The notes under the pieces were generated by a model, which worked only from the letters and a program-made list of their open reading frames with translations, did no database searches and was not told the origin of the DNA. The translations under genes and the position numbers were made by a program. Shown here piece by piece: positions 17,484 to 58,658 of a stretch of 59,998 nucleotides of DNA. Origin of the DNA: Byssothecium circinans (taxonomy: Eukaryota; Ascomycota; Dothideomycetes; Pleosporales; Massarinaceae). The stretch covers positions 668,770-728,767 of the forward strand of contig ML976992.1 of assembly GCA_010015675.1 (NCBI GenBank). Reading direction: 5' to 3'. Every line of letters starts with the position of its first letter. Within the stretch, counting starts at the first letter, position 1.

Positions 17484-19217
17484 ATTTAAGTACCGATAGA
17501 TGGAGAACAAGATCAAAGTGTTCCCGAAGACATCAAAAGTCGTTTATCTGTTCTAATGCGACTTTTTTTATGCATGTAAAGTAGAAATACAATCGTGAAG
17601 CCTTGAAAAAAGTACAGTGGAAGGCTTCCATCGCTGCGCCGTTGCGATCGACCTGACTCGTACGAGGCTAAACTCCTTTGCAACTCAGACCTCGGGAGGG
17701 CCGCACGACGCTGTCCTGTCCCTTTTCATGCAAGTCAGTGACGGCCCCGTCTCACCCCGCATTTCGGACCACGAATGCTTACTCTCCCGTTCCTAACTCA
17801 ACTCACTATCCCCTCCCAAAGCTCGTACAGTACGTACCGCAGAAGCATACCAGCAGAAGAGTTTTCATTATTATGTTAACCTTAAGCGCATCCTTACATC
17901 TAGCTGCTGCATAAACTTTCACTCCAGTGTCCTAACCTCTTGTAACCTCTCCGCAGCCTGTATTTTCTCCATCGGGCCGAAAAACAATACCGATATACGA
18001 GTCACCAGCTCACCGACAGGGCCGGTCTCACCCGCATTATTGTCTGGTAGTTGTAGCAACGCTCCGCACGCAAGACCATCCATCAAGTCCTTAGATACAG
18101 TCAATCCCACACGAGATCTGGTGGCCCAAACCTGATTCTCCAACACGGTCTACCCATTGCCGCCTGCAAGATTTTCTTTCCAGTCCTCTTGATCAAGAAA
18201 CAGTGCTCGCATACACTCATAAACTCACCCAGATACTCGAAGTAGTCTATAAGATACCATACACAGCTGCCTTACATAAAGCATACCAATCTCAAAGCAC
18301 CGCTTATACTTACATAAACAGTTCCTTCCACTGTCCACATCAAGGTACTGTACCTTACCATGGCATATAACCATATATCGATCGACTCCTTCCAGTGACT
18401 TCTAGGGCCCCACTCAGGCATCAGACTCAGGCTATTTCGCGCGAAAGAAAGACTTTCTTGGGCCTTGGTTGGGTAGTAACCACAACCACAACCATAACCA
18501 TAACCATAACCATAACCATAACCATAACCATAACCATAACCATAACCATAACCATAACCATAACCATGACCATGACCCTATCATATCATATCATCTTACT
18601 TGGAGGGAATACGTGGGGTGGGGTGGAGGAAGGTTAGAGCCCAAAACTGACTTTAACAACAAGCAATACCTGTGTGCAAGTTAACACACACACATGTCCC
18701 AACTATAACGTCGCCATTTCCATTTCCATTTCCACACTCCAAAACCATCTCCTCCAACCAATCCCTCGACCATCGTCTCCGGCATCTCCATCCAAACGGC
18801 ATTCAAACGGTGCGAGTACGTCAATGATTTCCAAGAATGCTACTGTAGGGATACAGGAAACCAAGCCCCCTGTATTACGTCTATACCTACTACCCAGCAT
18901 ACAGTACACCCAGCACCCAACGCCCAACGCACCCCACACCCCTAACGAACCCAAACCCCGCCTTCTACTACCACTACCACTACCATTCATAGTCTATGTC
19001 CATGACGCCGACCCAATGCAACCCTCAACACCCAACCCAACTCCCAACTACCCCCTACCGCCCCTCAGGAAACAAAACCCTAACCACCTCATCCAAAAGC
19101 GTAAAAGCAAGATGCGTACTACAATCCACAAGTTAGCCAACGATCCAACGAACCAACGATCTCCTACTCCCCCCCTACCCCCCCTACCCCCCCTCTTCTA
19201 GGAAAAAACAGTCCTAC
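17484..19217. other. gene-free stretch with simple repeats
   Basis: Upstream of the acyl-CoA synthetase and downstream of the Mdm1-type gene. Contains a hexanucleotide array (listed separately), a short CCATTT/CATTTC run near 18715-18735, and CA/CCCCTA-rich low-complexity sequence up to 19200. A minus open frame of 75 codons (18146-17919) has no recognisable features. Confidence 0.5.
18492..18567. repeat. (CCATAA)n hexanucleotide microsatellite
   Basis: About 12.5 near-perfect head-to-tail copies of CCATAA (TTATGG on the other strand), degenerating to CCATGA/CCATGACC at the right end. It differs from the usual fungal telomere unit TTAGGG and lies internally, so it is a microsatellite rather than a telomere. 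Confidence 0.95.
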
Positions 19218-22200
19218 TCACTTCAACCGCTGATTATTAACCGTCGCCTCGATCCTCTCGGCCGCCATCTTCGCATTCGCCCTCCCGACCACACTCCCCG
19301 CAACCTCAGGGACAAGCACACCGAGCACACTCTCCGCCTCCTTGCGACTCTTAGCCCTCTCTTTAAAGCCCCTTACACCGCCTGCTGCTGCACCACCGTC
19401 CTTTGCACTGTCCCTCCCTCCACCCTCCTTTCCACCCTCCTTCCCTATCAGCCCCCCGGGCCACATGCGCTCCCTAACCCCATCCACCCACCCCGCCAAC
19501 CGCCCCTCCTCAGTAACCGCCGCAAACGACTCCCTAACCTTCCGCTCAATCGTGCCCCCCAGTAACTGATGCAGCACAACAACCACCGCGCGCCCGCGAA
19601 GCCAGTTATTCTCTCTATTAAGTTCGAACAGTTCGAGGAACAGGTCGCAGATGGGTTTCACAAACGGAGGCAGCTCTTTATTTTCAAAGGCGAGGAGTTC
19701 GGCTTCCGCTTCCGCGTCTGTGGTGGTGCTCGGACCCGCGGGTCCGGGAGGGATGTTGGTGTCGCTGGGAGCTGCGCCGCCAGCGTTGGTGCTGGTGGAA
19801 GAAGCGAGTTGCGAACTCGCGGCGGAGATGAGATTCTGGCCCGCGACGGAGAGCTGGTCGAGCACGGGGATGTTGCCAAGGAATTCCTCCATGCCGTCGG
19901 CGACGGACGAGTAGATGCGAGACACGAAGTCGTTGTTGGGCGTTTGTTGCGACGAGGACGACGAAGGGTCGGCGGAGGGGAGGGCGGCTTGGGAGAGGAA
20001 GGCGCGGAATTCGCGGCTGCGACAGACTGCGGGGATAGTTAGGAGGTCCTACGATATGTTAGCTTCGTGACTTCGTCATCTGAGAATATGATATGTTTGG
20101 TTCAAGGGGTTTGAACAAACAAGAAGGGAGGGGTTTGCGTACTCTGAGATACTTCTCCAAGCCCAATCGCCGTTTGTGCAGAAAATCTTTTTGAAGTTTC
20201 GGGATCATCTGTCGACGCGGTAACTCCAGATTGCGAACCTGCGGGAACTTTGCGCGAAGCCGCTTGTTCAAGTCATGGAACTCGCTGTACCTTCTCGACA
20301 CCACCCAAGCAGCCGCTGGCATCTGATCGCCCGCACGACGGCGAACCTCAATAACATCTATACCGCATATTAGCAACCACTCAAGACCTCACAAGTCACA
20401 ACTCTCTCTTCCATCCATCCATCTCTCCATCCCCTGTCCACAAAAGAAAAGAACAAACGTACACAAAGCATACTCCCTGCCATCCTCATCCGTCCCCACC
20501 ATAAAACTCTGAATAAACACAGTCGCCCTCCCATACAAGCTATTATCACTCTCCTGCACGATATACTGCTGTCTCTGCAACTCCTTCCTCTCAATCTCCC
20601 TCTTCAGACTGGCCTTGCTCTTTCTCAGGATCCTTAGCTCCGCCGCGTTATTCGTCAACTCCGCTTTACTGGTCAGCGAATCGACAATGGATTCCTGCGT
20701 GACCAGGCGTTCGATGTCAGAGGTGAGTGCGTCAATGGCTTCAGCGAGCCCCAAGTCACCGGGCGCTGCTTCGTGGATCTCATCCTCGGCAGATGTCAGG
20801 TTGTGAGCATCTTCTACTTCGTCTTCGAGGAATTTTTCTTCTTCGCCGAAGAGGTCGTCGTTGAAGACGCCGCGGGTGCGTGGTGCACCGACGAGGCCGA
20901 GCGAGGCGATGCTAGGTTTTCCTTTCTTTTGCATGGCGAGAGGGTCGGGGGACATGGTGCGAGGGATCTCAGTGGATGCTGCCATGGAGCTGTTATCAAG
21001 AGGTGAATGCAAGGACTCGTGGAACAATGAGCTTTCGGGTTCGTCGCCCATGATATCGTTAAGTGCTGCTGACATCGCATCAACGACTCCTGAATTGTCG
21101 CTTTGACGACCAAAACCAGTATCGGAGTCCATACTCAAAACCGAGTTTGCTAGAGGGTCGCTGTCGTACTCATCGTCAAAAAGCGGCGCTCGCACACGCG
21201 CGCCATCGTCCAGAGAGCGCCGGGGCGATGGATCAAGATCTCTGACTTTGCCCAGACTGTTGAGATCGGACGACGACGCTACAGCTCGACGCAGATCCGG
21301 TGGTTGCAGGCTAGTCTTCTGCGCAGATTGCGTCCGCACCATCCTCTTCGGAACTACCAAAGCTGGGTTCTCAAGCGTTTGAGTGACGGTCTTCGTGCTC
21401 ACAGGCGTCTTCTCCGTACTAGCAGCTTCATCCATAGCCAGCCACTTGTAGTACAGATTCGATCTCTTGAAGCGTCTAAAATGCGGTTCCTGCATCTGAT
21501 CGTAGGCGGCGGTCTGAGCCTGAAGAAGTGTCCTCCTTGCAGTGTAGTACTGCTGAGGGGTGGCATTTCGACCAGCTTTGAGGAACTCGCCGACAGCCCT
21601 CCGCGCTTCAGGTAGGATATTGAGCTCAGGTTTCGAAAGATAACTTTCGTAGATCTGCGCCATATCCGCTCGATCCGAGTCCTTCCACGACGGCAACGAC
21701 CCCGGATCGTCCAAAGGTTCATCCGTATCCTGCTCCAGCGGATTACGGAACCCATCGACAACAATCCAAAACTGCACCAGCCGCATAAGCTCCACCTGAT
21801 CCATGAACTCCATGAAGCAAGACAATCCCGCCGCATCATACAGCACATCCCTTAATGACGCATTCTCGAATCTTGACGTTGTCCGCTTGTGCTTCGACTT
21901 CTCTTTCGCAGCGACTTTATTCCTGACCGAACCACCGGCACTCAGATTTCCAATCTTCTGATCCAGAATCCGCCGCGCAGTCTCCAGCCTCCTCAGATAA
22001 ACCGGATCCTGGGCCTCGACCATAGAATCCTTCCTCAACTGGCCCGAGATCTCCGTACGGAACCGCCGCGCATCAGCCAGTGTATTCGTCTGCCTGATAG
22101 CCCTAATGAACCTCTCGAACTTCCTCTCATTATCCCCAGGAGCAAGTGAAGGAAACTGCAGACTCCTTGGCATTTTCGGGGACGGCGGCGCATGTTTATC

Positions 22201-46230: not shown

Positions 46231-47121
46231 ATGCTGTTCTCCGCCTTCGTTTCTGCTGCTCTTGCAGCGACCACACTCGCCTTTCCAACACCAAATGGCA
46301 CCAACACTACCGTCGGCCCCGAAAACGGTCATCTTGTCATCGTAGGCGGAAATCTTCAAAGCGACAGCATCTGGCAACGCATCATCGAGCTCGCCGGAGG
46401 ACCCGAAGCACCAATCGTAGTCGTGCCAACAGCCGGCGGCGACCCAACATACAGCCAGAACTTTTCCTCAGCAGTGACCCTTCGAAACCTCGGTGCAAAG
46501 AACGTCACAGTCCTACACACATACGACCCGAAAGTAGCCGACACGGATGAATTCATCGCACCTCTTGCTGCAGCCAAAGGCATCTTCTTCGGTGGAGGCC
46601 GACAGTGGCGTCTTGTCGACGCATACGTTGGCACGAAGACTGAGAAAGCATTCGCCGCTGTTCTTGATCGTGGAGGCGTTATTTCAGGATCCAGTGCAGG
46701 TGCGAGTATTATCGGTTCTTTCCTCGTCCGAGGCGATACTGCGAATAATCAGATCATGATTGGAGATCATACTGTCGGGTTTGGATACCTCAAAAACACT
46801 GCCATTGATCAACACGTTTTAGTCCGAAATCGCCACTTTGACCTGTTTGATATTTTGAAGGTGTATCCAGAGTTGCTTGGCGTGGCTATTGACGAAGACA
46901 CCGCGTTGGTTGTGAGCGGTAATGATGTTGAGATCATTGGAAGCACGTATGCGCTGTTCTACGATCGCGGATTCTGGTCAAGAGAAGAACTGAGCGAGTT
47001 GAAGAACCTGCCTCCGCCGGAAAATAGATTTTATTTCTTGAGGCCGGGGGATAAGTACGATCTGGAAACGAGGAAGGTTGTACAAAGTGCTGCAACAGTA
47101 GGTGGCAACGATGAGCTCTGA
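46231..47121 (+). CDS. secreted peptidase S51 / cyanophycinase-like protein
   Basis: One exon, 296 residues. Start set at MLFSAFVSAALAATTLA, a clear signal peptide; an earlier in-frame ATG (46198) would put a charged leader in front. The mature part has GHLVIVGGNL, VVVPTAGGD, IFFGGGRQWRLVDAY and the nucleophile loop ISGSSAGASIIG (Ser about 162), all of the S51 fold. Cyanophycinases are serine exopeptidases that cut beta-Asp-Arg bonds; fungal secreted relatives have unknown substrates, since fungi do not make cyanophycin. N-glycosylation sites (NGT, NVT) fit secretion. No intron. Confidence 0.92.
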   Translation: MLFSAFVSAALAATTLAFPTPNGTNTTVGPENGHLVIVGGNLQSDSIWQRIIELAGGPEAPIVVVPTAGGDPTYSQNFSSAVTLRNLGAKNVTVLHTYDPKVADTDEFIAPLAAAKGIFFGGGRQWRLVDAYVGTKTEKAFAAVLDRGGVISGSSAGASIIGSFLVRGDTANNQIMIGDHTVGFGYLKNTAIDQHVLVRNRHFDLFDILKVYPELLGVAIDEDTALVVSGNDVEIIGSTYALFYDRGFWSREELSELKNLPPPENRFYFLRPGDKYDLETRKVVQSAATVGGNDEL

Positions 47122-48783: not shown

Positions 48784-49477
48784 TTATGACAACCCTGCAA
48801 TAAACCCCGTCACCAAAATACTAATCAGCAGCCCCCAAAAGCTTCCCACTGTTTTCGTCATCCCCCCGCTCACCCCAAACTCGTACTCCGTCACCCCCTC
48901 AACTTTACAAACAACCCATCTTTCATTGAAGTTCTTCAAAGTGGTTAGACCCGTAGTGTTTACCAGCTGAGGTAGCCCATCTTCCCCCTTTCGGCAACGA
49001 AATATACTCCTATTTTCGCATCAGTACACCGTTATTTCCACTCTCTCCATGCAGATAATAGGAAAATACCCGAAAATGGTGTACGTACGAGTAAACGCTA
49101 CAAGCGCAAGCCTTGTTAGTCAACTCAACCTTGTTGATCGGAGCTGACTGTCCCACGAATTGACTTCCATCGTCCAAACGAGTGCAGACACCGAACCCGA
49201 GAAGGGGAACCGTATGTGTCTTCCCTGGATGCGCAGGGTCTAGTGCAAAGTGGGAGGCTTCGCCGCAGATGGTGATGTTGGGATAGCGGCGGGTGATGTT
49301 GGCGTACCGTCGCGCGAGGGTGTTGGTGTGTGTTACATTTGGCGGAAGGTAGTGGACGGAGTCGTGGAGGGCGTGATCGCGTTGAGTATAGCTTTGCTTC
49401 GCTGGTGCTGAGAGTATCGCTAAGGTAAAGGCGAGGAATGAAGCGATAAACGTGAGGAAACGCATGATGATGGGCAA
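48784..49477 (-). CDS. six-cysteine secreted protein A, GPI-anchor-like tail
   Basis: Exons 49477-49089 and 49009-48784 (79-bp intron, phase 2) encode 204 residues; an in-frame Met at 49465 starts the cleaner signal peptide MRFLTFIASFLAFTLAILSA. The cysteine domain shows ITICGEASHF (C1), LLGFGVCTR (C2), KACACSVYS (C3-x-C4), then after the intron SIFRCRKGE (C5) and RWVVCKV (C6). The C-terminus is a hydrophobic helix (FWGLLISILVTGFIAGLS) after a small-residue stretch, as in GPI-anchored fungal wall proteins. N-glycosylation sites (NVT, NIT) are present. It is the closest neighbour in sequence to gene B (VPLLGFGVC versus VPLLAFGSC). Function unknown; likely cell surface or wall. Confidence 0.85.
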
Positions 49478-49834
49478 AGCGAATGAAGACTACCGGAGTC
49501 GTGTACTGGTTAGAAGTTGAGGATTTTGCACGAGGATGGGCATGGGAGGCTTTTCATTGGTACAGGTGCTTGAAGAGATGTGTACTTGAACGGGAAACAA
49601 TCAGTGACGTTGGGGTATCTATTGACAAGCTAGTCTGTGATCTTCTCTTGAAGATTGCTTTGCACCAAGTGAAGGTTACTGGAGCTTCACATAACCTAGT
49701 CTATGGCCTGTGATAGTCGGCAATCGTAATTCTATCTGCTCATGCGAGGTCAAATTTAACCACAAATAAAAAGCCAAAACTAACGACCTGCGCCATGATT
49801 CAACTGCCCCAAATTCCGGTTATCAAAACCCCTT

Positions 49835-50525
49835 CTAGAACAATCCAAACACAAAACCCATCCCCACCATCAACATAACCGCCCATAGACCACCAGACTT
49901 CAAAGAGGCTCCTACCTCACCATTGGACGCCGCATCTCCATCCAAGCTCCTCGCAGTCAGTGCTGCTCCCACCTTGCAATTAACCCACTTCCTTGGCTGC
50001 GTTAAGTTCGTCGTATTCGCCACCCCTCCAACCCATTCAGACTTTCCGTTACTGACGCCCTTGTCGCAAGTATCTTTGCTCCTGAGTACACTTCATCAGC
50101 AGACGATGTCCATTTCCTTGAGTTCTTACCCAAGTCCTTGAGCCATGCGGGAGCTGTAATACGTACGCGTAAAAACTGCAATTACACCTCCCCTCCACTA
50201 ACCCCACGCGATCGACGCTCCTCCCAGTCCTTTCAGCATCCACACTGTTATCGTCCGCGCGATGACAGGAACCGAACGCCAAAAGAGGGACGCCGTGGGA
50301 TTTGTACGTCGAGCCGTTGATGAAGACGAGATGTGCGAGACCGCAGATGGTGACATTCGAGTTCGTGTACTCGCTGCGGCGTGTGAGGTTGGTGAGTGAA
50401 GCGTCGTTGGGTGGGATATAGGATATGAAGGGTGCACGCTGATGGAGAGGTGTTGAGAGCGCTGGTGCCAGCACCGCGAACGTGATGGAGAGTATGGCGG
50501 GGATGATGAGGTGTGGCAAGATCAT
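49835..50525 (-). CDS. six-cysteine secreted protein B, GPI-anchor-like tail
   Basis: Exons 50525-50167 and 50081-49835 (85-bp intron, phase 2) give 201 residues. A signal peptide is followed by VTICGLAHLVF (C1), LLAFGSCHR (C2) and RCNCSFYA (C3, C4). Beyond the intron come SKDTCDKGV (C5) and KWVNCKV (C6), and a Ser/Gly-rich stretch ending in LWAVMLMVGMGFVFGLF, a GPI-type tail. The domain aligns with A along its whole length, so A and B are a tandem duplication. The intron sits at the same residue and phase as in A, C, D and F. Function unknown. Confidence 0.87.
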
Positions 50526-50606
50526 GCTGTGGGAAAAAGGGGGAGGATTGACGCAACTAAGTGTAAGGTTCTGTGTAATTGATTGGAAGCTAGAAACACT
50601 GAAAGG

Positions 50607-51288
50607 CTATCTAAGAAATGAAAGGGTATGGCCGTAACGAAACAAACCATGTGTGAAATAGTAAAGTGAATCAAAGACGGAAAACCAAATCCCAAATTGA
50701 AGAGCACAGAATGAAAACCTCAATGCCACGGTGAAGAAGCCAACCGGCCGCAGCCACAAATACCCCCTTCGACGCATGAACTTCGCCGCTCGTTCTCCGC
50801 CCCCTTCCGCAGAAATACTAGAGCAGTTGTACCATTTCTCCCACGTCCCATTTTCTTCGTGAAATCCTTCCAACCACGACAGCGGAGAGATTCCTTTCGA
50901 ACTTTGCGTTACATTCACGCCCTGCAAACACTCCTCTGGGCTTCTATATGCACGTTAACTTCTCTAGATTCGAAACGGTGAGCGCTCACAAAGTAAGCTA
51001 GTTGACGCACCTGTAAAATTTACAGTCACAGTCTGTGTCGTCGATCCTGAAGGCCCGTAAAGTGAAGTTTAAACTACCGAAGCTGATTCTAAGCTTCTTG
51101 CAGTGACTGGATCCGTTGAGTGGAATTCCGTTGTCTTTCGCGTCGCTGAGGATTCGATATGTGTAACCGCAAACTTTGGCGTCTCCGCTAGAAGGATTTT
51201 CGCGAGCGGCGTTGGACTTGCTGAGCCCGAGAGACATAGCGATAGGGCAGAGTGCTGCGAGGATGGCTGTGATTCGCATTTTTGGCAC
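50607..51288 (-). CDS. six-cysteine secreted protein C
   Basis: Exons 51288-51011 and 50943-50607 (67-bp intron, phase 2) give 204 residues; Met at 51279 begins the signal peptide MRITAILAALCPIAMSLG. Cysteines: KVCGYTYRIL (C1), GSSHCKKL (C2), TDCDCKFYR (C3, C4), then SPEECLQGV (C5) and KWYNCSS (C6). The tail has a basic patch (KFMRRRGY) then a long hydrophobic stretch and a polar end, so it may be membrane-anchored rather than GPI-anchored; the exact 3' end is less certain than in A and B. Diverged from A/B outside the motifs. Confidence 0.75.
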
Positions 51289-51831
51289 GAGCGAAGAAGT
51301 TGTTCAAAGCTGGGCAGTTGATGAGGAATGAGGATGGCTGAAGGATTCTTATCCATATCGAAAGTGTGGATGAAGAATGAAGGAAGATGGGCGAGAGAAA
51401 CAGTAAGGCTCGAATTTATACGGTGCGACCTTAATGTGAAAAGCCCAGGCCTACCATGGTAGAGAATTCAACCCGTGTGAAGCTAGTAGATATTAGTAAT
51501 AACCGCTACAAACTTGGCCCTCATGGCCCTCCATCCAACTCGCGATGGCCGCAACTCCAGTTGGGCAGGTGAGAAATGGAAGGGAGGTAGGAGTGAAGGA
51601 TGCGGGCGTAGTTATGAACAAAGGAGCCATGTTATATACCCTGTATGATTCATTTATCCAAGAGTCATCTACCCAAAGATGACTCGGCCAAGTATGACTC
51701 TAAACCCATAACACATAATTATGAGATCTCATCCCGAGACCATCACGCCCGAAGCATTGCCCCAATGAGTCCTCGCTTAGGCCCATCCATGAACCCGAAG
51801 AAGTCGCCACAAGCCGCCCGAAGCCGCTAAG
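51289..51831. other. intergenic
   Basis: Promoter of gene C and 3' flank of gene D. No further array member or other gene seen. Confidence 0.5.
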
Positions 51832-52261
51832 TTAATGCGGCATGACATGGCAAGCATAATTCTGAATCGCCGGATCAACGTCCTCGACATCCTTCTCGAT
51901 GACAACGAACGGGAGATCGTCCATGCAGTCCTTCACCCTGAAAAAGGTCAGTCAGTAAGCCTCGTTATCCTTTCCACCATCATAGATACAAGGCATTCTT
52001 TTGTAACCCGCGCTTTGGGCGAAGGAAGACTTACTTGTAGAAAAGACACGCGCAGTTCGGCCCGACACTAATTCGCTCCGTGGGGACGGTGGCCTCGAAC
52101 GGTACACACTTGGCCGTAGAGTAGAGCGGGTTGAGGATATCGTCGTTGTCGACACGACCGATGGCGAAACCGCAGATCTCGCCGAGCTTGACTGGGTTCG
52201 CGAGGGCCGTGGAGAAGAGGAGGGTGGCGAGGAGGGTGGCGAGGAAGTTGAGGAAGTGCAT
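51832..52261 (-). CDS. six-cysteine secreted protein D, short form
   Basis: Exons 52261-52035 and 51937-51832 (97-bp intron, phase 2) give only 110 residues. The signal peptide is MHFLNFLATLLATLLFSTALA. Then EICGFAIGR (C1), TAKCVPFEAT (C2), PNCACLFYK (C3, C4), VKDCMDDL (C5) and NYACHVMPH (C6, close to the C-terminus). It has no anchor, so it should be freely secreted: the minimal form of the family and the one most like a soluble small secreted effector or wall-binding protein. The AEATxP-type segment after C2 (VPFEATVP) is shared with decayed copy E. Confidence 0.85.
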
Positions 52262-52708
52262 GGTGTATGATTGGTTGGTTGGTTTGTGTGTAAAGGTATT
52301 TTTGGGATAAGAAGGTTTGGTGGGTTGGAGAGAGGGAGTGAGAGTGGTGGATCGTGGGTGGGGGAGAAGACCTGGGGAGGGCAGGGCTTATATACCGAGT
52401 GGGAGGTTAGTAAAGTAAGAAGCTCGAGTCCGCGTGAGGTACGTAAACGCTTTTGGTGGTAATTTCTCTAGGTCACGCCGGCGGGATTCGTCAGTTTCCG
52501 CAAACGCTTGATACAGCTTTGGCTGGCTCCGTTGGCACATCCACTGTACCTCGACGCAAAGGCTGGTATATCATCATGAATTATTTATGCAACTCGGTAT
52601 GTTAATATGTCCAACGCGTGAAAGCCCATGAGCAAGAAGTTCAAACTCACGCCAGCCCCAGACAACAAGCATATAACTGTATTTTTGGATTGCTAGATAT
52701 TCCCAGAT
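52262..52708. other. intergenic
   Basis: Promoter of gene D and 3' flank of the decayed copy E. Nothing else recognised. Confidence 0.45.
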
Positions 52709-52996
52709 TCAGTCTTCGTCTGCGCAGTCGTCTCTCCCCAATAATGCATACCCAATAGACGCATAAATCTTATCCCGTTTTCCCGTCCGCGTGACATACT
52801 CGTAGAACCCGGAATAGCTTTGATCCGTGGTAGCAATACTGTTCCCCTGCATCGGCACAGCCTCGAACCAAACGCACTCACCAGGCTGTAAGAAAAGCGA
52901 TCACGCGGTCATCTTCGTTTACCACATAAGCGTTGCCACAGGGGATGTTGGACCAGGCGTTTGCAGGATCGGCGAGTAGGAATTTTCAAAAGAGGG
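52709..52996 (-). pseudogene. decayed six-cysteine family copy E
   Basis: Reading minus from about 52996: a leader remnant KFLLADPANAWSN, then IPCGNAYVVNEDDRV (C1), a frame change near 52890, then PGECVWFEAVPMQ (C2) and DQSYSGFYEYV where C3-x-C4-x-F-Y should be, ending GRDDCADED with a stop at 52709-52711. CGNAYVVNEDD and CVWFEAVP match gene D (CGFAIGRVDNDD, CVPFEATVP). Both cysteines of the CxC motif are Ser, no start codon is in frame with the leader, and the frame breaks once. A very short intron (about 37 bp) could instead explain the frame change. Most likely a relic of a D-like gene. Confidence 0.65.
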
Positions 52997-53274
52997 TCCC
53001 TTATTCCGGTCCAAGGAAACATTCCAACAACCTAACAATACCCCTAGTCCGGCTGCATTGAATCGCTTCACACACCGACTTGACGAAGTGAAAATTCTCT
53101 TTGGGTTGAGTGAATGCTTGTGATAACCTAGTTCTGAGTCGTAATACTATGCTCTATCTGCTGCTGTTGCTCCCGAAGAAGTGAACCATCCGGTTTCGAT
53201 GTTCGTGGCCTTCGTTGGCAGGGCCGATCCACTGTTGAGGGTAGCATGGTTCGAAAGAGACCGGTTCGGCACGC

Positions 53275-55278
53275 TCATGTTATCCAGACGGGTGTCTTAT
53301 TCGTATATAAGGAGCTTGGGATTGGCTTTCCAAGAATTTGCGATGCAGCAAGGTTCGAACCACGTGTTGACAAGTGCCAAACGAAGCCTCTCAACTGCAT
53401 GACCCACCATGCTGCTTCTGTTCGGCCGTCATTTGGTTCCCCAATCTCGTAAAATCGATGGAGACTTTTATCAATGACCAGTTCGACATATCGTGTTGCC
53501 AAGTCGTGTAGCCCGACTTGAGCAAGGACACCAGTATACGATAGACCATCCTCGAAATCCCGCCGGTAATGCTCATCCTTCGGTAGATATTGTTCCATGT
53601 ACTGTTTGAGCATATCATGCTCTGATTTACCCTTCTCCAGTTGCTCAATGAAGGCCCTCGATCGTTCAGCGGCTATACTAGCTATTGCGCAATGGGAAGC
53701 GACTAAATTGACATATCCGGTGAGGCCAGCAGACCGTTGGTAACAGAAACCTTCTTTTATAAAATAATTCGTCGTCCAGTCAAACATCTCGCGAATGTCG
53801 TCCATGAATTTGGACTTTTGAATCTGACTAGCGGAATACACATATGGTCTTTTCATCACCCCAGCCAAGGGGAACATGTGCTGATGATCCATGAAGAGGA
53901 GTTTTAGCTTATCCAGCCTTTCGAGAATCTCAGTCAAAGATTGAGTAAGATATGAGTTGAAATTTTCGCTCCCTATACGATGGCGCAGCAGAAAATTTAA
54001 CGCAAATAAACCATCGAAGGATGTGTAAATGCTTCGAATATTTGGATCAAGAAGCCAACCAGGGAAACAAAAAGACATCAGGAATGACTTATTCAGCGGA
54101 AGAAATGGGAGTAGAAGGGTGATTGCGTCATTTTGGACTTCAGTATAGGAGTTTTTACCAATCTCTTTCGCGCAAGTGCCGATAGCGTAAATCCGGCGCA
54201 ACAAACCGTTTGGGTCCGCAACATCTGTGACCTCCCCTTGCTCGTTGACCATAGGAAAGTCGAATTTGACAAGGTCAGGATCGCCAGGAAGGATGCCGAG
54301 AACCATTTTATCGACAGCGCGGCTGGGTATGAGGCGAGGATAGTATAGATGGGGACCAGATGCAGTGAATCGAAGCACAAGACCCAGGCCGCGCACGTCA
54401 ATGGCCGAAATAGTGTAGCCATTGCCGTTGGCCTGCATCTTCCCTAGTTCAGGCTCTATGATACGCCAATGTATACCGAGTCGAACAGCCAGAAGAATAA
54501 TGTCGCAAACGCTGACTACAGCTAGTGGTCTAATCATATCCGGGGGCATGAGATCCCAAGACCATACTCTGTAGATGACGGCGATATCGGTGCGAGCCAT
54601 GGTTGGAACTTCGTCGATCCAGGTTTCCTCATCATAGACAGCATCCCAATTCGTCTTGGTGATCTCGGTGTCGTTCTTGATATGATTGGGTGCAGTACAA
54701 GATGGGCAATCCTCGGGCCAGTAAGTAACGGAAAGTCGATGAAGCTCCTGCAACAGGCGTAACCAGCTCACTATGTTGTCACTTTCGACTATTGAACGCT
54801 GAAATTTGCGATTCGGCTGTCGCTTCGGAGACGCTGCATCTTTCTCAACGTCCCCATTTACATGCGAGCTAACAGCTGAGGGCCTCGTAGATTGAGGTTT
54901 ATTTTTCTTCCGTCCATGGTGACGATACTCCTGGTGTACAGTCCTATCGAGTTCGGCACATTCTTCTTTAGCCAGTCGTGGGCTGTTGATAGCATAGACC
55001 TCTCTGTGTTGTTCCGCGTACTCTTGAAATTCGCGAGGCGTGACAAGAACGATCTGAGGAGTGACGTAGAGAGTCTCGAAGCGAAACTCTGACCACCTCC
55101 ATTTCCGATTGCGGAGCCGATGCCAGACTCCAATGACGGATTCGCTGCATCTACGATAACCCTCCGCGGAACTGAGGACCTGGGCGAGGAGCTGGTTGCT
55201 CGTGACGATGAGGGCAATAACGGAAATGATGAGTGCAACGATAGCCACATTGACTTCGCCCTTGTCTGAGTCGCCCAT
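53275..55278 (-). CDS. fungal protein of unknown function, modin-like
   Basis: One intronless frame of 667 codons. An N-terminal membrane helix (VAIVALIISVIALIVT, about residue 11-26) leads into a region LLAQVLSSAEGYRRC. A basic, disordered stretch (about 110-165) and a long globular part follow. It contains a zinc-like CPSCTAP near 195 and DVRGLGLVLRFTASGPHLYY. The overall design resembles fungal proteins annotated as modin or heterokaryon-incompatibility modifiers; that match is from memory and not certain. No catalytic motif is visible. It interrupts the six-cysteine array and is divergent from ORC6. An alternative is an orphan membrane-tethered signalling protein. Confidence 0.7.
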   Translation of the reverse strand: MGDSDKGEVNVAIVALIISVIALIVTSNQLLAQVLSSAEGYRRCSESVIGVWHRLRNRKWRWSEFRFETLYVTPQIVLVTPREFQEYAEQHREVYAINSPRLAKEECAELDRTVHQEYRHHGRKKNKPQSTRPSAVSSHVNGDVEKDAASPKRQPNRKFQRSIVESDNIVSWLRLLQELHRLSVTYWPEDCPSCTAPNHIKNDTEITKTNWDAVYDEETWIDEVPTMARTDIAVIYRVWSWDLMPPDMIRPLAVVSVCDIILLAVRLGIHWRIIEPELGKMQANGNGYTISAIDVRGLGLVLRFTASGPHLYYPRLIPSRAVDKMVLGILPGDPDLVKFDFPMVNEQGEVTDVADPNGLLRRIYAIGTCAKEIGKNSYTEVQNDAITLLLPFLPLNKSFLMSFCFPGWLLDPNIRSIYTSFDGLFALNFLLRHRIGSENFNSYLTQSLTEILERLDKLKLLFMDHQHMFPLAGVMKRPYVYSASQIQKSKFMDDIREMFDWTTNYFIKEGFCYQRSAGLTGYVNLVASHCAIASIAAERSRAFIEQLEKGKSEHDMLKQYMEQYLPKDEHYRRDFEDGLSYTGVLAQVGLHDLATRYVELVIDKSLHRFYEIGEPNDGRTEAAWWVMQLRGFVWHLSTRGSNLAASQILGKPIPSSLYTNKTPVWIT

Positions 55279-55793
55279 ACTGGAGGTTGGCAGAGGAGAT
55301 GATGAGTGGAGTGGACATGTCGGGCGTCCCGGATGATATAGGGAATGAGGGGCGTTGAAGAGGTAACCAGGCTTACGGATGGCGTCGAATGATAGTTCAG
55401 GCTACTGAGTACAGATACACATGTGCACGGAATAAATTCGTAGCGGCATCATACAGTGACCTTACACAACAGGATCTTGCTCTCCTCCAGTTGTTACAAC
55501 CGCTTGCGTGCGGGGAAGGCGCGCGGTGTTCTGAAAAACGGCGATACATGACGTGTACTTATTATTGAAGGGAAATTCCTTATACGGAGTATAGGGTGGA
55601 AGATAGAGGAAGAAGGCGAAGAGAGAAATGACGGCGGTGCTGCCAGAATGAATGGAGTGTTGACTCAGGGTGGATGTGTCACTCGCCGATCTAGTTCTAA
55701 TAGGGCTAAGCGGCACGTGAGCGCGCGATCTCCACTGAGGTTTGACGCGCAGTCTCGTCTTTGTCATCGATACAGCACCTCAAGCAACTCACA
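55279..55793. promoter_or_regulatory. divergent promoter region, modin-like gene / orc6
   Basis: 515 bp between two divergent starts. Short open frames only. Confidence 0.45.
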
Positions 55794-56931
55794 ATGAGCC
55801 GAGCCACGATTGAGCAGTCTCTCAATAGCCTGGTGCCCACACTGAATGGTGCACTACCTGCAGAGCTCGTTGAGATTGCGCTGTCGCTCCTCACACAGTC
55901 GCGAAGCGTTGGGAATTCACTCAAGCCAGACGAGGAAATTGCGCGGCCGTATGCATGCGCCCACTTGGCCTGCGATAGGTATTTCAAGCATCAATTTTCC
56001 CCTGCGTACGTACTGATCTATACCTAGGTTGAAGAAGCGCCTCAACCTCCCCTCCCTTACCCCTCACCCACCGTGCCCCCCGCGCATCTACAAGAAGCTG
56101 TACAAGTACCTCGAGAGCACACTGCCAGCTGCAGCCCCCCGTGAACCTCAGACACCTCGCAAGAATGCTACCACGAGTGCACCGCTGTCAGGTCGAACGA
56201 CACCGAGGACACCGATGAGTGCGAGGAAGACGCCGAGAAGCGCACGGAAGGAAGAACACACGACTCAGGATGCCCCTGACTGGGTCATGCCCTCCATACG
56301 CGCCGCTGTGAAGGCCCTCTCATATCCCAACGCGGCCCCGCACATCTACACTGGCGTCATCTCGATTCTGCCGCTCCTTGCGCGCATGTCCGCTGCGGCT
56401 GCTGAGACGCCTAGCAAGCGGCCGCGACGAGCGACTGCAGTACAGACATCTTCGGCCGAAGTCTCCGATGCACGCACGCTGGGTCTCACTGCTGTGCTCC
56501 TGTTTTACGTGCTCTCGCGGATGACGGAAGAGGACATCACTCCTCAGCAGTACGTCGAATGGCGAGAGAAAGCCATCACCGCAATGCTCTCCTCCTCACT
56601 CGACAAGGGAGTCTCTGAAGAAGAGGTGGAGGCTGAGATCGAGTCGTTGATGCCCATGGCCCAGGAAGAAGGCTGGCTGCAGATGGAGTGGTTCTCCAAC
56701 ATCACCCAACCGGGTGACGGAGAAGGGATGGAAGGCGTTGAGACCACCAACGGTGGCTCCCGTGCTTCATCTTCGAAGAGTAAAGGGTTGAATGTTGGAG
56801 GCAGCGACTACATTGGCCTGGGAACGATGATGCAGGATGCTACTGACTATTTGGGCGCACGACAGCGCGAAGAATACCGGGAGTGGAAATCGAGCATCAT
56901 GGCGCGGATTGAAGAGATTGAGGCTTCGTAG
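55794..56931 (+). CDS. orc6: origin recognition complex subunit 6
   Basis: Exons 55794-55978 and 56028-56931 (49-bp intron) give 362 residues. The N-terminal cyclin/TFIIB-like fold starts SRATIEQSLNSLVPTLNGAL and continues LKKRLNLPSLTPHPPCPPRI, YKKLYKYLE. A Thr/Pro-rich linker with many S/T-P sites (RTTPRTPMSARKTPRSARK) matches CDK sites known in ORC6. The second TFIIB-like domain follows (DWVMPSIRAAVKALSYPNAA) and a conserved helical tail. Orc6 binds origin DNA with the rest of ORC and helps load Mcm2-7. Single-copy housekeeping gene, so its position inside the cysteine-protein array is by chance. A Met at 55761 is in frame but unsupported. Confidence 0.92.
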
Positions 56932-57598
56932 CTATCATAACCAGGGCACTCCATTGGGAGTACTTACTCGTCTCCTGTCTCGCACCCCAGAATGATTGTT
57001 GTGCGAAGGCGTGAAGGTAGAATTCAGACTTTGTTTGACTACAGTACATGAGCATCGTTAGCTACCGGGGGTCCAGAGCGGTGTTTTACATGTGGACTAG
57101 CGGTTTATATGTTCACCAAGAGTGATAGGGAAGGGGTTTCGTATTTGAGAACATGAGTGAGAAGGATGCAGAGAGATATTCGACATGAAAATGGCTAGCG
57201 CCATTGCTGACGTAGACAGAATCTTTAGTGTACTTGTTCATCAAGTTTGGCCACATTGTACACCGTCTTAGTTGTATGAAGCGTTGCCAGCGTTGCAATG
57301 CATTGTGGTACGCCCATTGTTGGCTTGCCTCTTTCAAAGCCTAAAAAGGTCCTTTGTTAACATGTCAAAGGAACTGTACGAATACGAGCTCCACAAAGAA
57401 CAATCCCTCTGCCGTGACCGCAAGAAAACCAAACACCACACAAAACTGCATTTTTCACATTTTCTCAACCAAACCTACAAACTTCAATATCCTCGACTGT
57501 TCGCACCCTTCAATCACAGATCCCCACATACTACTGTAAGGTCCAGCAGCCTGAAAATATCCCCACTTGAGCTACGCCCCAGAGCCTCCTGAGCAACC
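56932..57598. other. intergenic
   Basis: 3' flank of orc6 and promoter of gene F. Short open frames only; nothing recognised. Confidence 0.5.
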
Positions 57599-58658
57599 AT
57601 GTATTTCCCTAAACCCTACGTTTTCCTCCCCATCCTCACGTACGCAGTGCTAGCCACGTCCACGTCCACGAATACCTCTCTTCCACTACCCACCAACGCG
57701 CTCGCTATCCGAGGCGCCCCAGAGCCCCCAACATGCGGGAGAGCATACGTTACCCTCGACTTCGGCAAACCCCTTCTCGACTCGCCCACTTGTAGCTTCC
57801 TAGGTGAACCGATGAAGAATAAGATCTTCGGTTTTATTCAGTTACAGAATCTTTATCAGGAGTATAGGATTGAGCGGAAAGAGTGTTGGTGTATGTTTTA
57901 TTGGTAAGCATCTCTTCCCTTCTCCCTCTCCCTTTCCATAATCACTCGCTCTGTGTGTGTGTGCGCGAGGGAGGGGGTAAGTGTGTAGTGCTGAGCTAAC
58001 GTGAATGCGTGCTAGGAACAAAGACGACTGCGAGCAGAAGAAAAATCCGGCAGAGGGATGGAAGGGGAAAAGGTTGAGGAATATGTTCGAGAATCGGAAT
58101 TTTCATCAGCATAAAGTGAAATGGTATCGGTGTACGAGTCAGCCGGACAACAAAGTGAGACCGCCTGATCCGCCGAAAACACCACCACCACCTCCTCCTC
58201 CTCAGCCAGCACCACCGCCGCCAAAACCAGCACCACCGCCGCCAAAACCAGCGCCACCTCCGACAAAGCCAGCACCACCTCCTCCACCCTCTTCAAAATC
58301 ACCGTCGTCAGCCGCAACACCCACGCCTCTGCCGTCTACCATGCCTCCATCATCCGCCACAGGCCACAATTCGACATCGTCATCGTCTAGTGTTGTTATT
58401 ACTTCGACACCAGCACCGTCGTCTTCACGGCCCTCCACCACGAGTTCGAATTCAACAACGGCGAGCACGTCATCTCCAACGGGTTCAAGGATGTCAAACA
58501 CTACATCAGGAAACGCATCACAAACATCGAAATGGAACTACCCGTACCCTCGACCAACTACGAGTCTGGCTACTCGCGGGCTGGATTCTCACTCTGTGGA
58601 GGTACTTGCGCTGGTTGCGTTTATCACGTTGTTTTCTTTTGTGTCTTTTTGCTTTTAG
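57599..58658 (+). CDS. six-cysteine secreted protein F with Pro-rich stalk and GPI-like tail
   Basis: Exons 57599-57903 and 58016-58658 (112-bp intron, phase 2) give 315 residues, the longest member. Signal peptide YVFLPILTYAVLATSTS; then PTCGRAYVTL (C1), DSPTCSFLG (C2), KECWCMFYW (C3, C4), and after the intron NKDDCEQKK (C5) and KWYRCTS (C6). Next comes a proline-rich stalk of PPPKPA-type repeats (about residues 150-190), then a Ser/Thr-rich mucin-like stretch with NST sites. It ends with VLALVAFITLFSFVSFCF, a GPI-type tail. This layout, domain plus rigid glycosylated stalk plus anchor, is that of a wall-exposed surface protein. It is the only member on the plus strand and lies 5 kb from the others. 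Confidence 0.85.

Follow-up and report, generated by a model that had tools for sequence, protein, structure and literature searches.

Most small secreted proteins of fungi are orphans by sequence. The βγ-crystallin/WmKT double Greek key is among eighteen orphan candidate effector folds found in more than 80% of 20 Pezizomycotina species (PMC10462633), a common intron position has been taken as evidence of common origin for Blumeria effectors (PMC3582587), and cysteine spacing has been used for the FOLD effectors of Fusarium oxysporum (PMC10942635); each of these sources was available in part, as was the Venturia effector paper PMC9632046, whose available part makes no mention of crystallins. 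Here, we describe a tandem cluster of secreted six-cysteine proteins in Byssothecium circinans (Massarinaceae, Pleosporales), five genes of which lie in a stretch of 59,998 nucleotides (hereafter the window; C16:668770-728767, C16 being contig ML976992.1 in a genome of 48,443,569 bases and 109 contigs). Nine intact loci (A, B, C, D, F, G, H, K, and N) were found within ~24 kb, and the family is real and bigger than first described in a sequence-only reading of the window. We consider it about an even bet (probability near 0.5) that the family is by origin a diverged βγ-crystallin-like module, and we do not file it as a crystallin member.

Like the βγ-crystallin/WmKT candidate effectors, as described in the available part of PMC10462633, the cluster proteins are small, secreted, and orphan by sequence, with a conserved core and a diverged surface. 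Unlike those effectors, they have no Pfam match, carry an extra C1-G and an extra C3 (cysteines are numbered C1 to C6 within the domain), possess tails of the glycosylphosphatidylinositol (GPI) type in A, B, F, and G, and have expanded in tandem. With the crystallin-like genes of their own genome they share the C4-C5 and C5-C6 spacing and a C-x-[FL]-[FY] strand. The candidate secreted effector proteins (CSEPs) and RNase-like effectors of Blumeria are a large family and resemble the cluster in being secreted, in having little identity, and in being united by intron position and cysteines; however, according to the part of PMC3582587 at hand, the CSEPs carry an N-terminal YxC motif and are proposed to adopt an RNase T1-like fold, whereas the CxCx[FV]Y motif of the cluster lies mid-domain and no RNase match appeared. 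FOLD effectors likewise have six cysteines, with conserved spacing in their N-domain (exact spacings were not compared), but are two-domain proteins in the available text of PMC10942635, while D and H each consist of one small domain.

The spliced models of the five window genes (Table 1) all keep the same motif order, in which a hydrophobic N-terminus is followed by C1-G, C2, C3-x-C4-x-[FV]-Y, C5, and C6, in line with the five intact genes proposed from sequence. Each gene contains a single phase 2 intron placed 2 bases past the Tyr codon of CxCx[FV]Y, with 377, 359, 269, 227, and 305 coding bases upstream of the donor in A, B, C, D, and F, respectively. C1 and C6 delimit a domain of about 76-100 residues, and the C-terminal motif of D is Y-A-C. 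Dibasic sites are present on the N-terminal side of the domain in A (RR at residues 52 and 59), B, and K, and the stalk of F contains a Pro-rich repeat at 58206-58286 besides its Ser/Thr-rich stretch. The gene spans given previously were retained for B, D, and F; in A and C, the ATG follows 12 and 9 bases downstream of the starts given there (49477 and 51288, respectively). Deposited proteins P0002 and P0003 are identical to our models of D and F; P0001 is a fusion of exon 1 of C with B, and P0005 has exon 1 in common with the A model and a different end.

Homology was assessed with leave-one-out, whole-core profiles against 500 shuffles in which C-x-[hydrophobic]-Y was held fixed, and a second shuffle set kept the cysteines in place. 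None of 500 shuffles of either kind reached the scores of A, B, C, F, G, and H (33.7, 48.4, 45.6, 55.4, 50.3, and 45.8 bits). The same six were recovered from exon 1 alone (E values of at most 1.1e-4; D, 0.19), and C (0.005), F, and G (both at most 6e-5) were recovered from exon 2 alone, a comparison in which A, B, D, H, and I were not. This leave-one-out and exon-wise recovery shows that A, B, C, F, G, and H are homologous. D scored 8.7 bits (7/500 free shuffles; 42/500 with cysteines kept), which is weak by sequence, and its membership is suggested by cysteine order, intron, and place. A seven-member profile gave 7.9 bits for I (5/500 free; 79/500 with cysteines kept), 6.2 bits for K (15/500 free; 8/500 with cysteines kept), and -0.6 bits for N (337/500); left out of a ten-member set, K scored 9.2 (5/500) and N scored 1.2 (131/500). 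We therefore assign K and I tentatively, and layout, intron, and place suggest that N belongs as well. Identity in the core outside the cysteines was 12-27% in 20 of the 21 pairs among seven genes and 37% in A/B, reproducing the low identity between motifs already remarked for all members apart from A/B. In the A/B pair, the nonsynonymous divergence (dN) was 0.73 and the synonymous divergence (dS) was saturated, so that selection is not measurable there.

The proposed link to βγ-crystallins is based on a structure model and on three crystallin-like genes of the same genome (X6, L070, and Y7). In a structure comparison of the low-confidence model of D (pLDDT, a predicted local distance difference test score, of 59.6), βγ-crystallins made up 6 of the 10 listed rows. 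The same model places C3-C4 in a strand, and the strand position proposed previously for these cysteines is borne out in this low-confidence model only. The Greek-key signature is aromatic-x4-aromatic-x-G; by eye, a second motif can be followed as F-Y and then a cysteine at the place of the later aromatic residue, the first motif is not clear, and of all members just A, B, and C have a subsequent G (C-x-x-G). X6 contains two crystallin-like domains and matched the Pfam model Inhibitor_I36 above cut-off (4.4e-7), with Crystall_3 (2.2e-4) and Crystall (0.18) both below cut-off; its best PDB matches were to nitrollin (E value, 0.2). In both X6 domains, a phase 2 intron follows C-x-F-[FY] by 2 bases, at the same codon, and an intron shared with the family is present in two of the three crystallin-like genes (X6 and L070). 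The third, Y7, came to light through its similarity to X6 (E value, 2.8e-7), has no crystallin Pfam match of its own, and carries C2, C3, C4, C5, and C6 in family order. The C4-C5 spacing is 8 in all four crystallin-like domains and 7-9 in eight of nine family members, the C5-C6 spacing is 25-33 in the former and 25-35 in the family, and the C2-C4 spacing is 25-30 and 20-33, respectively; C2-x-x-[LF] occurs in 12 of the 13 sequences (four crystallin-like domains and nine members).

Profile comparisons between the two groups gave mixed values. The family profile reached Y7 at 6/1000 with seven members and 1/1000 with ten, X6 domain 2 at 13/1000 and 65/1000, X6 domain 1 at 56/1000 and 47/1000, and L070 at 186/1000 and 77/1000. 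In the reverse direction, a crystallin-like profile reached D at 1/1000, C at 19/1000, and the remaining eight at no better than 65/1000 (at least 65/1000 each); with Y7 included, the values were 4/1000 for D and 43/1000 for C. Profile-profile comparison gave E values of 0.026-0.4. The earlier idea of a wholly unnamed fold is weakened by the partly shared cysteine frame, by the intron in two of the three crystallin-like genes, and by the D model, and it keeps the lack of a Pfam match in its favor.

Several observations weigh against a crystallin origin and would fit instead a separate six-cysteine fold, of a known effector type or new, whose crystallin likeness amounts to the C-x-F-Y strand and a chance placement of the intron. 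No member matched any Pfam family above cut-off, and PF00030, PF03995, and PF08964 matched none at E values up to 10, although crystallin-type Pfam models work on this genome, since X6 was matched by them. Most sequence tests of the link fail, including the majority of the crystallin-to-member profile tests, and the structure comparison of the H model listed no βγ-crystallin among its matches. Furthermore, X6 and L070 lack C3, have C1 at a different place, and were retrieved by patterns that select for this very intron layout. A separate fold would, on the other hand, leave to coincidence the βγ-crystallin rows for D, the agreement of the four crystallin-like domains in C4-C5 and C5-C6 spacing and in C2-x-x-[LF], and the intron at one codon in both X6 domains, and we regard it as plausible but below even odds. 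Rather less likely, in our judgment, is a six-cysteine domain that is restricted to this lineage, has its own fold, and expanded around the ORC6 gene; its wall-anchored and released sisters would form a displayed and diffusible set for recognition or antagonism, diversifying within an invariant cysteine and intron frame.

Two further alternatives concern function. Whatever their fold, the proteins could be host-directed effectors of a plant-associated fungus and not proteins of the wall or of antagonism; they are small, secreted, cysteine-rich, clustered, diverged, and orphan by sequence, like the orphan candidate effectors in the available part of PMC10462633. However, the same part reports such folds in fungi of all lifestyles, and the GPI-type tails of A, B, F, and G would suit the fungal surface better; we consider this role unlikely. 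The array might also consist of decaying duplicates with little selected function, as the remnant J without a first-exon core, the odd C-terminus of C, and the saturated synonymous sites of A/B would allow; against this, cysteines and splice sites are kept in nine intact copies despite the low core identity in 20 of the 21 pairs compared, and we judge decay very improbable.

Searches for a known family were negative throughout. No Pfam model was matched above cut-off by A, B, C, D, F, G, H, I, J, K, or N, and no NCBIfam model by the deposited proteins P0002, P0003, P0004, and P0006; a hidden Markov model (HMM) search thus did not place the members in one well-characterized family. The earlier reading of secreted six-cysteine proteins that form a local and strongly diverged group outside any Pfam family is upheld. 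CFEM, hydrophobin, cerato-platanin, and LysM, which had been discounted from sequence, gave no Pfam match at E values up to 10 in ten members (A, B, C, D, F, G, H, I, K, and N). A PDB sequence search with a five-member alignment, K, and L070 returned weak, unrelated rows only. Three large protein searches (five-member alignment, seven-member alignment, and K) returned Byssothecium proteins only, with no deposited protein for G or N among the matches; these searches require shared 5-residue words, one run scored the best 7997 candidates, and relatives at ~25% identity would escape them, so that a restriction to this species cannot be claimed. Of the effector folds RALPH, MAX, KP4, KP6, and FOLD, only MAX proteins were among the matches listed (best 50 of 67, one search), at Foldseek E values of at least 5, and viral structures gave no significant match. 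Phage records searched with D yielded nothing, scanning the window for Rfam families and tRNAs was likewise negative, and a literature search limited to open-licence papers turned up no description of the cluster that we recognized. In UniRef, D bears the name fungal calcium binding protein (PF12192). Like that protein, D is small, secreted, and cysteine-containing; unlike it, D has no PF12192 match at E values up to 10, and the name was rejected, the single PF12192 gene of the genome sitting on another contig. A PF03995 site on contig C41 contains stops and was not used.

Genes G, H, K, and N and the remnant J were missed initially because the window stops before them. The introns of G, H, K, and N are of phase 2 and equal in position to those of the window genes, and the similarity of J to G was reached by 1 of 500 shuffles. 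Across the whole genome, nucleotide matches to C-x-C-x-[FVLI]-Y followed by a donor numbered 13, of which 7 lie in the cluster, against 3 in the reversed control; two of the 13 revealed G and H. Further patterns gave 15 against 7 and 8 against 4, and two later ones 34 against 24 (30 of the 34 given as loci) and 28 against 26. When the window and the next 30 kb downstream were scanned for frames that open with a signal peptide and end in C-x-hydrophobic-[YF], 2 bases, and a donor, nine sites were returned, and these are the nine cluster genes. Apart from cluster genes, I, L070, and X6, the pattern sites that were translated had no fitting frame and were dropped, and a site at C16:742929 had no clear gene model. 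The relic E proposed as a sixth window member is not supported: the exon 1 HMM gave an E value of 8.1, the reading frames gave no confirmation, and the best of 14 piece comparisons was 5/500.

The C-terminal tails were assessed by mean hydropathy only and not by a GPI predictor. On this scale, A (2.42), B (2.33), F (2.68), and G possess hydrophobic tails (range, 2.33-2.78) that lie 1-4 residues from the end, the tail of C is ambiguous (0.69), and those of D, H, I, K, and N score 0.33 or less. Judged by these tails, a putative GPI anchor probably fixes A, B, F, and G to the wall or membrane, and D, H, K, and N are probably released copies. N-terminal signals and the wall-anchor-type tails of several members agree with the wall or secreted proteins envisaged earlier.

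The ORC6 gene lies between D and F, and a housekeeping gene is thus embedded in a fast-evolving array. A 667-codon open frame without a Pfam match at E values up to 10 lies between D and ORC6, and the cluster is bordered by a peptidase family S51 gene. A long open frame between the window end and gene G has a start that looks transposase-like. Elsewhere in the window, a TAACCA array is surrounded by a strong C excess (GC skew of -0.289 at 18001-20000).

Table 1. Features of the cluster, its candidate relatives, and its surroundings. Bare numbers are window positions; prefixes such as C16 or C6 denote contigs, and L016 is a locus handle.
Feature	Location	Strand	Intron	Remarks
Gene A	49465-48784	-	49088-49010, phase 2	Signal peptide, dibasic sites, six-cysteine domain, GPI-type tail
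Gene B	50525-49835	-	50166-50082, phase 2	Parts as in gene A
Gene C	51279-50607	-	51010-50944, phase 2	Six-cysteine domain; C-terminus after domain unlike other members
Gene D	52261-51832	-	52034-51938, phase 2	Shortest member, 110 aa; tail-less, probably released form
Claimed relic E	52690..53060	-		Family membership without statistical support
Gene F	57599-58658	+	57904-58015, phase 2	Six-cysteine domain, Pro-rich and Ser/Thr-rich stalk, GPI-type tail
Gene G	C16:730437-731153		Phase 2	Six-cysteine member past window edge
Remnant J	Between G and H			Signal peptide and exon 2 piece ending W-Y-K-C; no first-exon core
Gene H	C16:734027-734453		Phase 2	Deposited P0004; past window edge
Gene K	C16:734917-735466		Phase 2	Without C3; contained in deposited P0006
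Gene N	C16:741473-741900		Phase 2, after CxFF	C-x3-C-x-F-F
Possible dispersed copy I	C11		Phase 2 (by eye)	C-G, C-x-C-x-F-Y, and C6 kept; C2 and C5 absent
X6 (L046)	C6:1189434-1190315		Phase 2	Two crystallin-like domains
L070	C35:140757-141444		Phase 2, at family position	Crystallin-like secreted gene; Inhibitor_I36 0.018, below cut-off
Y7 (L078)	C7:1274308-1274586		None (single exon)	Crystallin-like secreted gene
L019	C10:3160-3321			Single PF12192 match of genome, 40.6 bits, over cut-off; unrelated to D
ORC6 gene	55794-56931			First exon PF05460, E 4.4e-13
667-codon open frame	53275-55278	-
Peptidase family S51 gene	46231-47121			PF03575, E 1.4e-18
TAACCA array	18477-18577			16.8 copies, 96% match
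Long open frame	L016:665-2546			Window end to gene G

Each protein of this tandem, fast-diverging family would consist of one disulfide-stabilized domain behind a signal peptide. If the crystallin origin is correct, this domain derives from the double-Greek-key module of fungal βγ-crystallin-like proteins; the second Greek-key motif would then begin with C4-x-F-Y, the intron, and C5, and C6 would belong to its last strand. We infer three disulfides, a β-sandwich, and binding rather than catalysis; the joint absence of C2 and C5 from I suggests a possible C2-C5 disulfide. Such a rigid β-scaffold could present variable loops for partner binding at or beyond the hyphal surface, the candidate partners being host molecules or the wall or a protease of a competitor, so that the copies would diversify around a constant cysteine frame. 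The nine copies share little except cysteines, strand motif, and intron, and anchored-type proteins stand beside released-type ones. Since K and N were found by it, and not clearly by profiles, the intron-plus-cysteine signature offers a cheap route for tracing such families. If the crystallin link is true, this orphan cluster would join one widespread fold of fungal candidate effectors.

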